Positions 6,518 to 59,736 of a stretch of DNA of 64,000 nt are shown one piece after another. The position numbers were made by a program, and so were the translations under genes. Every line of letters starts with the position of its first letter. Within the stretch, counting starts at the first letter, position 1. The notes under the pieces were generated by a model. That model was given only the letters and a program-made list of their open reading frames with translations, made no database searches and was not told the origin of the DNA. Source of the DNA: Ignavibacteria bacterium (lineage in GTDB: Bacteria > Bacteroidota > Ignavibacteria > Ch128b); assembly GCA_013177855.1 (NCBI GenBank), contig JABLYA010000001.1, positions 1,715,573 to 1,779,572 of the forward strand, in the 5' to 3' direction.

Positions 6518-6526
6518 TATTGGTTG

Positions 6527-7324
6527 ATGCCAGAAACTATTAAGTCATTATTAAAATCACTCTCTCCTAAAACTTATAATTCTGTAAAGGGAATTATCTC
6601 AGATTATTCTTCTGGTAGTCAAGAATTAAATGAAAAAATTTTACTGTTGCTTTTAAAGTCCCGCAGTGTTAAGACGCTTAAGAATTTAATTTTGATTTTC
6701 AGAGAAGTTTTCACGCAATTTGCTGCGATTCTTTATACACTTGGCAAAGTTGAGCAAAAATTAGAAAAGAGCAATCTTGAAGATGTGAAAAGTTATATTC
6801 GAGCTCTACTTAATCAACAAGAGTTAAGAATTCAGAAGCTTTACGGTAAATTTAGAAGGAAAATTTCTAAAGGCATTCGAATACTCACTTTTTCAAACAG
6901 CTATACTTGCTTTAAGCTATTTGAAAAAATTCAATCAGAAGGATTTGATCCTGAATTTTATATTCCTGTTTCAAATCCAGGTGGTGAGGGGAAATTGCTT
7001 TTTATAAAACTAAAACAATTAGGAGCTAAATGCATTTTAATTCAGGATAAAGAAATTGAAAGAGTGATTTCTGAAGTGGATATTGTTATAACTGGTGCAG
7101 ATAAAATTATTCAGAACAAATATTTTATTAATAAGTTAGGCACCAAGCGACTTGCATTACTCGCAAAGAAGCACTCCAAGCCATTTTATCTTATAGCGTT
7201 AAAAGAAAAAGTTCTGAAAGAGGGGATTTTTACTGAGAGTGAAAAAACACCATTAAGAAAGAAAGACAAAATATTATTTGAAAGAGTGGAAATAGCTTTT
7301 GTTACGGAAATTTTTATTGCTTAG
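6527..7324 (+). CDS. eIF2B alpha/beta/delta-like (MtnA / ribose-1,5-bisphosphate isomerase superfamily) protein
   Basis: The C-terminal half resembles the eIF2B/MtnA superfamily: ISKGIRILTFSNS (first strand and loop), NPGGEGKLLFIKLKQLG (in place of the usual ERPxxxG loop), DIVITGADKII with the conserved GAD, and INKLGTKRLALLAKKHSKPF, matching the NKIGT...LA...PFY signature. The N-terminal 110 residues are predominantly helical, as in eIF2B subunits. At 266 residues it is shorter than MtnA (about 340). The conserved Arg-Pro of the sugar-phosphate loop appears replaced by Asn-Pro, so isomerase activity is doubtful. TTG at 6524 immediately precedes ATG 6527; I prefer the ATG. It is probably co-transcribed with the ECF sigma gene. 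The function is unknown: a sugar-phosphate-binding regulator or a divergent isomerase are both possible. Confidence 0.65.
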   Translation: MPETIKSLLKSLSPKTYNSVKGIISDYSSGSQELNEKILLLLLKSRSVKTLKNLILIFREVFTQFAAILYTLGKVEQKLEKSNLEDVKSYIRALLNQQELRIQKLYGKFRRKISKGIRILTFSNSYTCFKLFEKIQSEGFDPEFYIPVSNPGGEGKLLFIKLKQLGAKCILIQDKEIERVISEVDIVITGADKIIQNKYFINKLGTKRLALLAKKHSKPFYLIALKEKVLKEGIFTESEKTPLRKKDKILFERVEIAFVTEIFIA

Positions 7325-7333
7325 AGTTGGTTT

Positions 7334-7373
7334 AAAAAAAGAACTGCCAAGGTGGAGGGCAAACCTTGGCAGT
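7334..7373 (-). terminator. Rho-independent terminator reading on the minus strand
   Basis: A perfect 10-bp stem with an 11-base loop is followed, in the minus direction only, by TC plus seven Ts. On the plus strand the bases after the stem (GTAGAGTTACG) contain no T run, so it is a poor terminator for the upstream eIF2B-like gene. This orientation is the main argument for a minus-strand transcript in this gap. Confidence 0.7.
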
Positions 7374-7456
7374 GTAGAGTTACGTTTTAGTGGAGGGCAA
7401 TAAGGGTAACACAGATAAGGGTAGTAACTTCAACTTTTAGGAGAACTCAAATGATA
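7334..7456 (-). ncRNA. Candidate small RNA with two anti-Shine-Dalgarno GCCCTCCAC motifs
   Basis: The gap between 7324 and the suf genes holds a strong hairpin whose T tract lies on the minus strand: ACTGCCAAGG (7373-7364), an 11-base loop, CCTTGGCAGT (7352-7343), then TC and seven Ts (7340-7334). A minus-strand transcript ending here would carry the 9-base motif GCCCTCCAC twice, once running into the terminator loop (complement of 7352-7360) and once upstream (complement of 7390-7398). It would also carry TACCCTTAT twice (complements of 7400-7408 and 7415-7423). CCCTCC is complementary to Shine-Dalgarno sequences, as in C-rich-loop riboregulators. The 5' end is placed only by a sigma-54-like TGGCAC-N5-TTGA element at 7481-7467. 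I see no minus-strand ORF here. The existence, ends and function of this RNA are inferred. Confidence 0.38.
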
Positions 7457-7466
7457 TTTTTAAAGG

Positions 7467-7481
7467 TCAATATCTGTGCCA
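7467..7481 (-). promoter_or_regulatory. Possible sigma-54-type -24/-12 element for the candidate small RNA
   Basis: On the minus strand TGGCAC (7481-7476) is followed after 5 bases by TTGA (7470-7467). The GG-to-G spacing fits the GG-N10-GC rule, but the -12 C is replaced by A. Only the -24 half is convincing. An NtrC-type activator is encoded at 58345-59736, so sigma-54 is probably present in this organism. Confidence 0.25.
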
Positions 7482-58344: not shown

Positions 58345-59736
58345 ATGAAACAAAAAATTTTAATAATCGATGATGATGAATTGGTGACCTCATCGCTTAA
58401 AAGAGCATTGGCTCAAAGTGGTTATGAAATTGAAATTGCATCGAGTGGAAAATTGGGCATTGAAAAAGTTGAAAAAGAAAATCCTGATATGGTTCTGCTT
58501 GATATTTTTTTGGGTGACCTGAATGGAATGGAAGTTTTAAAGAAAATTTTTCTTATAAATCCCGATTTGCCCGTTGTTATGATAACTGGATTTGCTGATG
58601 TTCAGACAGCTGTGAATGCAATAAAAATGGGGGCAATTGATTTTATACTTAAACCTATAAATGTTGATCAATTAGAGCTAATCATAAATAAAACCCTTAA
58701 GCATGTCGCTCTTCAAAAAGAGGTTCAAAGATTAAAGTTAATTACCAAAGAAGGTGATATTACAAGAGAAATGTTCGGACAAAGTCGTGCAATTAAATCA
58801 ACACTTGATGCCGTTGAAAAAATTGCAATAAGTGAAGGCACAACAATTTTAATTGAAGGAGAGAGCGGCGTTGGTAAAGAAATGATAGCTCGATACATAC
58901 ATAATATTTCAAGTCGAAGAGAAGGACCTTTTGTTGCCATTAATTGCGGTGCAATTCCAAAAGAATTAGCTGAGAGTGAATTATTTGGAAGTGAAAAGGG
59001 TGCTTACACTGGAGCAAGTGAAAAAACTCGAATTGGAAAATTTGAAATTGCTGATGGTGGAACAATTCTGCTTGATGAAATTGGAGAATTGAGCCTTGAA
59101 CTTCAAGTAAAACTTCTAAGAGTACTTCAAGAAAAGAAATTCTTCCGTCTCGGTGGAACAAAAGAAATTAGTGTTAATGTCAGAATAATAGCAGCAACAA
59201 ACAAAGATTTGCGGCAAGCTGTGAGCGAAAAAACTTTTCGGGAAGATCTATATTATAGATTGAATGTAGCAACTATCTATGTTCCTCCTTTAAGAGAAAG
59301 AAAAGAAGATATACCATTTTTAGCAATGAACTTTGTTGATGAATTTAATAAGACGTTCAATAAACAAATCAAAAAGATTTCTCCTGAAGCTTTAGACATG
59401 ATGTTGAATTATTCATGGCCCGGAAATGTTCGTGAACTTCGAAATACAATCGAAAGAGCCGTTCTTTTAATCAGTGGAGATGAACTTAAACCTGAACATT
59501 TAAATTTTATTGAAAAAGATAAATCCATACAAAAGATTATCGACGATGAATATATTTTGAAAATCCCGAAGCAAGGAATTAAGATGGATCAAGTTGTTAG
59601 AGATTTAATTATCCAAACACTTGAAATTACTGATGGTAATCAAATTCAAGCCGCTAAAATACTTGGTATTTCAAGATCAAAACTTCGTTACAGAATGGAA
59701 CAACTTAAAATTGAGGTTAAAAAACAGGTAAAATGA
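58345..59736 (+). CDS. Sigma-54-dependent response regulator (NtrC/AtoC family)
   Basis: Bacterial enhancer-binding protein that activates sigma-54 promoters when phosphorylated. It has a receiver (1-120, phospho-acceptor D53 in MVLLDIFLGD), an AAA+ domain (Walker A GESGVGKE 172-179; sigma-54-contact loop GAYTGA 219-224, with Tyr instead of the usual Phe; Walker B ILLDEIGE 241-248; the R-finger region RLNVATIYVPPLRER), and a C-terminal Fis-type helix-turn-helix (GNQIQAAKILGISRSKLRYRM). At 463 residues the length is normal. The start overlaps nothing but follows the pseudo-kinase after 3 bases; the receiver gene downstream overlaps its end by 4 bases. Confidence 0.95.
   Translation: MKQKILIIDDDELVTSSLKRALAQSGYEIEIASSGKLGIEKVEKENPDMVLLDIFLGDLNGMEVLKKIFLINPDLPVVMITGFADVQTAVNAIKMGAIDFILKPINVDQLELIINKTLKHVALQKEVQRLKLITKEGDITREMFGQSRAIKSTLDAVEKIAISEGTTILIEGESGVGKEMIARYIHNISSRREGPFVAINCGAIPKELAESELFGSEKGAYTGASEKTRIGKFEIADGGTILLDEIGELSLELQVKLLRVLQEKKFFRLGGTKEISVNVRIIAATNKDLRQAVSEKTFREDLYYRLNVATIYVPPLRERKEDIPFLAMNFVDEFNKTFNKQIKKISPEALDMMLNYSWPGNVRELRNTIERAVLLISGDELKPEHLNFIEKDKSIQKIIDDEYILKIPKQGIKMDQVVRDLIIQTLEITDGNQIQAAKILGISRSKLRYRMEQLKIEVKKQVK

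Follow-up and report, generated by a model that had tools for sequence, protein, structure and literature searches.

The 64,000-nucleotide stretch of Ignavibacteria DNA analysed here (the window) most likely carries on its minus strand a conserved gene for a small RNA, which we call RNA-A. Comparison across genomes places it in an RNA family that is absent from Rfam and almost confined to four families of the class. The promoter of RNA-A is apparently of a conserved sigma-54 type. On balance we favour the reading that RNA-A is an Hfq-independent, sigma-54-driven, trans-acting sRNA, the CU-rich loops of which would block ribosome-binding sites of the GGAGG type.

Structure and extent of RNA-A

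The features of the locus are collected in Table 1. The 5' start of RNA-A was set from the promoter spacing. A preliminary description of the window had proposed a minus-strand small RNA about 120 bases long, and the comparative data bear out such a gene, as the terminator, its loop and the motifs are conserved. The inverted-repeat search placed the terminator arms at 7343-7353 and 7363-7373, and on the minus strand the terminator reads, 5' to 3', ACTGCCAAGGT-TTGCCCTCC-ACCTTGGCAGT-TCTTTTTTT. It had been described as a perfect 10-bp stem with a T tract on the minus strand only. The stem is indeed perfect and no T tract follows the hairpin on the plus strand, but the stem length is 11 bp. The 9-nt loop contains the second GCCCTCC.

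Read from its 5' end, RNA-A consists of two copies of TACCCTTAT, one of GCCCTCCAC, a spacer, the 11-bp hairpin and TCTTTTTTT. Two copies of each motif had been reported, those of GCCCTCCAC 38 bases apart, and the positions confirmed both points; the TACCCTTAT copies are spaced 15 apart. The first GCCCTCCAC is carried in the loop of hairpin 1, a weak stem that is invariant in the window's family. The 9-mer GTGGAGGGC (plus sense) was found twice in the 64-kb window while 0.07 copies were expected, and a count of two was reached by 1 of 100 shuffles.

Table 1. Positions of RNA-A, its parts and its surroundings in the window
Feature	Position	Strand	Basis or remark
RNA-A, predicted small RNA of ~123 nt	7334-7456	-	inferred sigma-54 start to end of U-tract
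U-rich tail of intrinsic terminator	7334-7342	-	
Terminator hairpin, perfect 11 bp, 9-nt loop	7343-7373	-	inverted repeat; stem covaries
GCCCTCCAC copy 2, candidate anti-Shine-Dalgarno seed 2	7352-7360	-	mostly within terminator loop
Hairpin 1, GTTAC 7410-7406 with GTAAC 7383-7379	7379-7410	-	invariant in the family
GCCCTCCAC copy 1, candidate anti-Shine-Dalgarno seed 1	7390-7398	-	
TACCCTTAT copy 2	7400-7408	-	
TACCCTTAT copy 1	7415-7423	-	
-24/-12 promoter of sigma-54 type, TGGCACAGATATTG	7468-7481	-	followed by AC, not C
Candidate enhancer dyad TTCTCA-N4-TGATAA	7532-7547		one mismatch; suggestive only
Candidate enhancer dyad TTTTCA-N6-TGAGAA	7553-7570		upstream of promoter; suggestive only
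IF-2B family protein gene (PF01008)	6524-7324	+	convergent neighbour; stop 10 nt from RNA-A end

The predicted fold of the minus strand gave z = -2.28, with 8 of 200 shuffles equally good, and that of the plus strand z = -3.23. Since fold energy alone does not decide the strand, it was decided by the U-tract, the promoter and the conservation. The consensus terminator scan missed the RNA-A hairpin because the scan had a loop limit of 8.

A ten-codon frame starting with GTG lies inside RNA-A (7412-7380, minus strand). It is kept in six sequences of the family, where the sole change, TTG to TTA, is silent (both by eye). A tiny peptide gene that starts at this GTG and has its stop ending at 7380 could explain why the middle part is conserved in the family. 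We give this explanation hardly any credence, as there is no ribosome site in front of the GTG, the frame is not kept outside the family, and the terminator loop and the promoter would be left unexplained.

Conservation as an RNA family

In a BLAST-type search of 61 genomes, the element was detected in all five other genomes of the window's family (G001-G005) with 88-91% identity, and the terminator alone was matched in G041, from another family. A sense-strand alignment of the six family sequences has 101 columns, of which 78 were invariant. The only variation in the two GCCCTCC motifs was seen in G003 and G005, where the first copy begins with A instead of G. At three positions of the terminator stem an A-U pair was exchanged for G-C, so that both partners differ, and no pair was broken. 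The motif stretches outside the stems were as constant as the stems, and the sequence 5' of the motifs diverged between genera. The preliminary description had staked its candidate on the fate of loop and motifs in close relatives, and both are conserved there.

We used two covariance models. R1 was built from the six family sequences (threshold E up to 0.01) and matched in 38 of the 391 genomes of the class. R2 was built from 28 sequences with the terminator helix only. With R2, the covariance search that had been suggested as a check found relatives in 87 of the 391 genomes and 54 of the 190 genera, nearly all of them in families f1, f10, f22 and f26 and mostly one per genome. There were 64 R2 matches of at least 44 bits (strong loci), 61 of which were read (G217, G285 and G345 were left out). 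The counts exclude L135, a weak R1 match, and all matches below 44 bits. These 61 loci represent 38 genera and 58 distinct rows.

At the strong loci 97.2% of stem cells were paired, and 10 of the 11 pairs were changed on both sides. Double-changed stem cells numbered 145 (45.4 in shuffles). Covariation scored 0.668, compared with 0.270 in shuffles and at most 0.167 for slid stems. The 61-locus alignment was fitted to the model, and therefore the MAFFT alignment of 28 sequences provides the safer figure (99.3% paired, 50 double-changed cells vs 13.0).

GCCCTC was present in the match at 59 of 59 examined loci, a universality that is partly by construction because the models were built on this loop. 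The 59 loci are the 61 strong ones minus L129 and L131, which were also left out of the kinase-linked comparison below. CCCTCC was located 12-65 nt upstream of GCCCTC at 49 of the 61 strong loci. In the 59-locus set this upstream motif occurred at 48 loci (0.16 expected), and the other 11 had close upstream variants, e.g. ACCCCC, CCCTCG or TCCTCC; in alignment A9 the placement of CCCTCC is imperfect. For the predicted transcripts of the 59 loci, the mean probability of being unpaired was 0.94 in the terminator loop, 0.90 in the upstream motif and 0.50 elsewhere.

A phylum-wide search of 395 genomes gave 38 matches, 37 inside the class and one outside (G646, E 2.2e-4). Rfam 15 recognized only tRNA in the window, and six loci had no Rfam match at E up to 1.

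Sigma-54 type promoter

The sequence TGGYAY-N5-TTG is the -24/-12 form of sigma-54 promoters, and canonical sites have TTGC, i.e. GC at -12. The element of this form upstream of RNA-A had been called only suggestive. We observed that it is a conserved feature and the best clue to the gene: the strict form was found upstream at 48 of 61 strong loci and in 31 of 38 genera (relaxed form, 50/61). The promoter region was not used to build R2, and of the 33 loci held out from the building of R2, 27 had the strict block. The background was 6 matches in 376,506 bases, counted on both strands of the same loci, or 0.0022 per stretch of 140 nt; many loci are related, so the 61 are not independent events. 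Within the 64-kb window alone there were 3 matches to the -24/-12 form where 2.27 were expected, which is not significant, and the significance of the promoter match comes only from conservation across loci. The match is more distant, by about 40 nt, in G003 and G005, where it is found further upstream.

It could be argued that the block is another conserved site and that the promoter is not of sigma-54 type. Of the 48 promoter matches only 7 have C directly after TTG, and the window has A. The strict block is missing at 13 of 61 loci, including several f10 genera, and 2 of these 13 fit the relaxed form. In addition, two related RNAs are present in G221, where rpoN was not found, and neither has the block. 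We nevertheless consider this explanation distinctly unlikely, since the distance of the block yields RNAs of 75-105 nt outside f1, rpoN is nearly universal, and we saw no other promoter form that explains TGG and TTG at such spacing. The gene rpoN was present in 379 of 391 class genomes, including that of the window, which makes its co-occurrence with the RNA uninformative.

Two dyads lie upstream of the promoter of RNA-A. Dyads of the form TTYTCA-N4-TGARAA were found in a minority of upstream regions (10 of 50), compared with 0.3 in shuffled sequence and 1.6 in noncoding background, and it is possible that these dyads are activator sites. Eleven genes for sigma-54 activators (PF00158) were found in the window's genome, and one of them is located in the window, at 58774-59277 on the plus strand.

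Several loci deviate from the common arrangement. G221 and G279 carry two and five relatives, respectively, none with a sigma-54 block. These multi-copy relatives are low-scoring, and some are in tandem about 112 nt apart; L173 and L174-L176 have GCCCTC terminator loops, and the fifth G279 match (L177) is without the motif. L186 and L188 (G378 and G240) have an extra upstream hairpin with the loop GCCCTCG, which brings their CU-rich loops to three; the sigma-54 block is absent from both. L201 contains two tandem copies (1540-1619 and 1740-1817); the second carries CCTCC and a separate sigma-54 block, and its terminator loop is without GCCCTC.

Genomic neighbourhood and a second relative

A histidine kinase gene (HATPase_c, PF02518) ends upstream of the RNA on the same strand at 45 of the 61 loci. 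At nine further loci only nadA (PF02445) is upstream, and seven have neither, so that kinase or nadA is found at 54 of 61 loci; synteny was no part of the model. The order purA-kinase-(nadA)-RNA occurs in f1 (G003, G004), f10, f22 (G118) and f26, with purA identified by eye. A dCMP deaminase gene often follows the RNA (21/61 loci), and so does ppk (named by eye). G182 has nadA and no kinase in the stretch read. Inspection by eye revealed no NtrC-type response regulator beside the kinase in the stretches read.

The kinase was present in all 30 match-free genomes searched. Behind it, 29 match-free loci showed one sigma-54 match and one CU-type terminator, compared with 36/44 and 29/44, respectively, at the kinase-linked positive loci. 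As the kinase occurs in match-free genomes with the RNA features almost always missing behind it, the RNA is an addition to a kinase locus that is older. The kinase is in all 30 of these genomes, whereas only part of the class has the RNA, and the gain of an RNA arm could therefore be studied at an existing signalling locus.

RNA-A had been presented as lying upstream of suf. This location is probably not functional, because suf adjoins the RNA only in the window's genus and elsewhere the RNA is at the sensor-kinase/nadA locus. We found no R2 match near sufB in 80 loci of named genomes, which fits an adjacency limited to one genus. A plus-strand structured RNA or riboswitch for suf was rejected, as the conservation, the U-tract and the promoter are on the minus strand and suf is adjacent in one genus.

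The window's genome contains a second relative, RNA-B, at a kinase-nadA locus (G000 contig 2, 223153-223234; L229 8228-8162, minus strand). RNA-B has an 11-12-bp hairpin with a loop that holds CCTCCTCC and ACCTCC, and its terminator loop is CCCCTCC(T). It is nearly the same in G001 and G002, and no sigma-54 block was found at RNA-B in G000, G001 or G002. Judged from the loci compared, the window's genus has moved RNA-A beside suf and kept RNA-B at the kinase locus. The IF-2B gene adjoins the RNA also in G001, G002 and G004. Because it does so at the G004 kinase locus, RNA-A and the IF-2B gene probably moved together.

The convergent IF-2B gene also raises the question whether the element is cis-acting or incidental, serving as a terminator for this gene or as an antisense leader with no function in trans. 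In G000, G001, G002 and G004 the RNA match and the convergent gene have their ends 5-10 nt apart. We regard this as very improbable, since the plus strand is without a T tract, and in other families with other neighbours the promoter, the two motifs and the terminator are mostly still kept.

Proposed mechanism

For the trans-acting sRNA that we favour, the following course of events is suggested. An NtrC-type activator, probably answering a two-component signal, would open the sigma-54 promoter at 7481-7468, which is conserved. An RNA of 75-123 nt would then be transcribed and end at its own terminator, the structure of which is seen in the covariation. Two CU-rich loops are predicted to stay single-stranded, one with GCCCTC at the terminator and one with CCCTCC in the first, weak hairpin or close to it. 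Through them the RNA would pair with several mRNAs at ribosome-binding sites of the GGAGG(G) type and block ribosome loading. Hfq would not be needed; its gene was found in none of the 11 genomes searched. The position of the gene beside a sensor kinase suggests that a kinase, an activator and the sRNA may be wired as for GlmY or CrcZ.

A different role for a real sigma-54 RNA would be that of a decoy or sponge like CrcZ, with CU-rich loops that bind a protein (e.g. one with a KH domain or RRM) or an RNA. A short loop motif that is invariant across genera fits a protein site equally well, the scans described below gave no clear set of mRNA targets, and the genomes examined yielded no Hfq, which leaves room for another partner. 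We think such a role rather unlikely. The two motifs have different flanks and lie in different hairpin contexts, as would suit seeds for pairing, and the complement GGAGGG is a Shine-Dalgarno core. Furthermore, CCTCCTCC and CCTCC of RNA-B share with CCCTCC only the complementarity to Shine-Dalgarno sites.

A broader proposal is offered tentatively, as one that we ourselves doubt more than we believe: kinase-linked, sigma-54-triggered anti-Shine-Dalgarno RNAs might form a global translation switch in this Hfq-less class, with a circuit plan independent of GlmY and CrcZ and with the job split between RNA-A and RNA-B. If so, short RNAs imitating the 16S rRNA tail would flood the cell on a signal and silence mRNAs with GGAGGG sites, and the plan known from GlmY and CrcZ would have evolved a separate time in this class. 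The split of the job in the window's genus would be between RNA-A, with a sigma-54 promoter, and RNA-B, with no sigma-54 site and a CCTCCTCC loop.

The RNA family offers a defined test object in a class where rpoN is almost universal and where the genomes checked showed no Hfq. It opens the questions of base-pairing RNAs without Hfq, of sigma-54 control in the class, and of the repeated origin of anti-Shine-Dalgarno RNAs. A full-text search of the open-licence literature returned no paper that names both Ignavibacteria and sRNA.

Comparison with known systems

NfeR1 of Sinorhizobium meliloti (cuckoo/alpha-r14) has three hairpins with the exposed anti-Shine-Dalgarno motif CCUCCUCCC. It covers the ribosome site and silences ntrBC, with LsrB as its activator and NtrC as its repressor (PMC10746234). 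Like RNA-A, the cuckoo RNAs have several hairpins and an identical motif in unpaired regions, with stems free to change. Here a repeated anti-Shine-Dalgarno motif, predicted to be unpaired, is seen as two GCCCTCCAC copies in RNA-A and as CCCTCC plus GCCCTC at 49/61 loci, and the CCTCCTCC of RNA-B adds to the likeness. The cuckoo RNAs differ in having the nonamer CCUCCUCCC and three hairpins and in belonging to alpha-proteobacteria, whereas here we find CCCTCC/GCCCTC and two hairpins. We did not file RNA-A as cuckoo because it has neither the nonamer nor the three hairpins and had no match in Rfam, the one collection with which its sequence was compared.

GlmY has a sigma-54 promoter activated by the response regulator of a two-component system, QseE/QseF (PMC6075780), its gene adjoins the kinase locus qseEGF (PMC8745638), and it is a decoy for RapZ (PMC6075780, PMC8745638). 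It shares with the present family the sigma-54 promoter and a gene beside a kinase locus. The difference is that GlmY is a RapZ decoy with QseF, while here no NtrC-type regulator was seen beside the kinase. The CrcZ gene encodes a sigma-54 sRNA directly after cbrA/cbrB, in a synteny conserved in its family, and CrcZ sequesters Crc/Hfq (PMC8871633). The likeness lies in a sigma-54 sRNA after a kinase in conserved synteny, and the difference in the sequestering of Crc/Hfq, as no Hfq was found in 11 genomes here. CJnc230 of Campylobacter is RpoN-dependent with a putative anti-Shine-Dalgarno motif (PMC11187230), and GlnZ of enterics is RpoN-dependent and represses sucA, a 2-oxoacid dehydrogenase E1 gene (PMC9731577). 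Both belong to other clades, and both are released from RpoN-dependent mRNAs (flgE and glnA, respectively), whereas the present family has its own conserved sigma-54 promoter. By analogy, the family thus resembles cuckoo in anatomy and GlmY/CrcZ in wiring.

Candidate targets

Genes in the window use Shine-Dalgarno sites. A GAGG/GGAG-type site precedes 22 of 53 window ORFs compared with 2 of 31 internal control positions, and any Shine-Dalgarno motif precedes 31/53 compared with 4/31. We scanned six genomes for TGGAGGG 2-9 nt before ATG, with the reversed pattern as control. The target search on these sites, which had been proposed earlier, gave 84 hits vs 44, only about 1.9 times the control, and the excess was uneven between genomes. 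It came mostly from G002 (13 vs 1), G004 (13 vs 6) and G005 (21 vs 7); the counts were 17 vs 12 in G000, 9 vs 10 in G001 and 11 vs 8 in G003.

Among 30 of the 84 loci, two genes recurred, namely khpA, which keeps its TGGAGGG site in G001 and G002, and the gene for 2-oxoacid dehydrogenase E1 (G000, G004). The E1 gene was followed in 30 genomes and 28 loci were read (G005 had no match and the G008 locus was left out). GGAGGG was present at the E1 site in 4 of the 5 family genomes in which the gene was found, and GAGGG in 5 of 5. The E1 GGAGGG was not kept in sRNA-bearing genomes of f10, f22 and f26, and we therefore treat E1 as a lead and not as a target. With the E1 site followed across families, no candidate target was conserved beyond one family. 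The genes khpA, atpE and rpsP and the 3097 gene are putative, unproven targets of RNA-A.

In the window's genome, the E1 fusion gene carries TGGAGGGC before its ATG (G000 contig 1, 617580-617566, minus strand; L263, L280). An adenosine deaminase gene in the window (PF00962; 54058-55146, minus strand) has GAGGGC just before its ATG, and this sequence is complementary to the GCCCTC loop.
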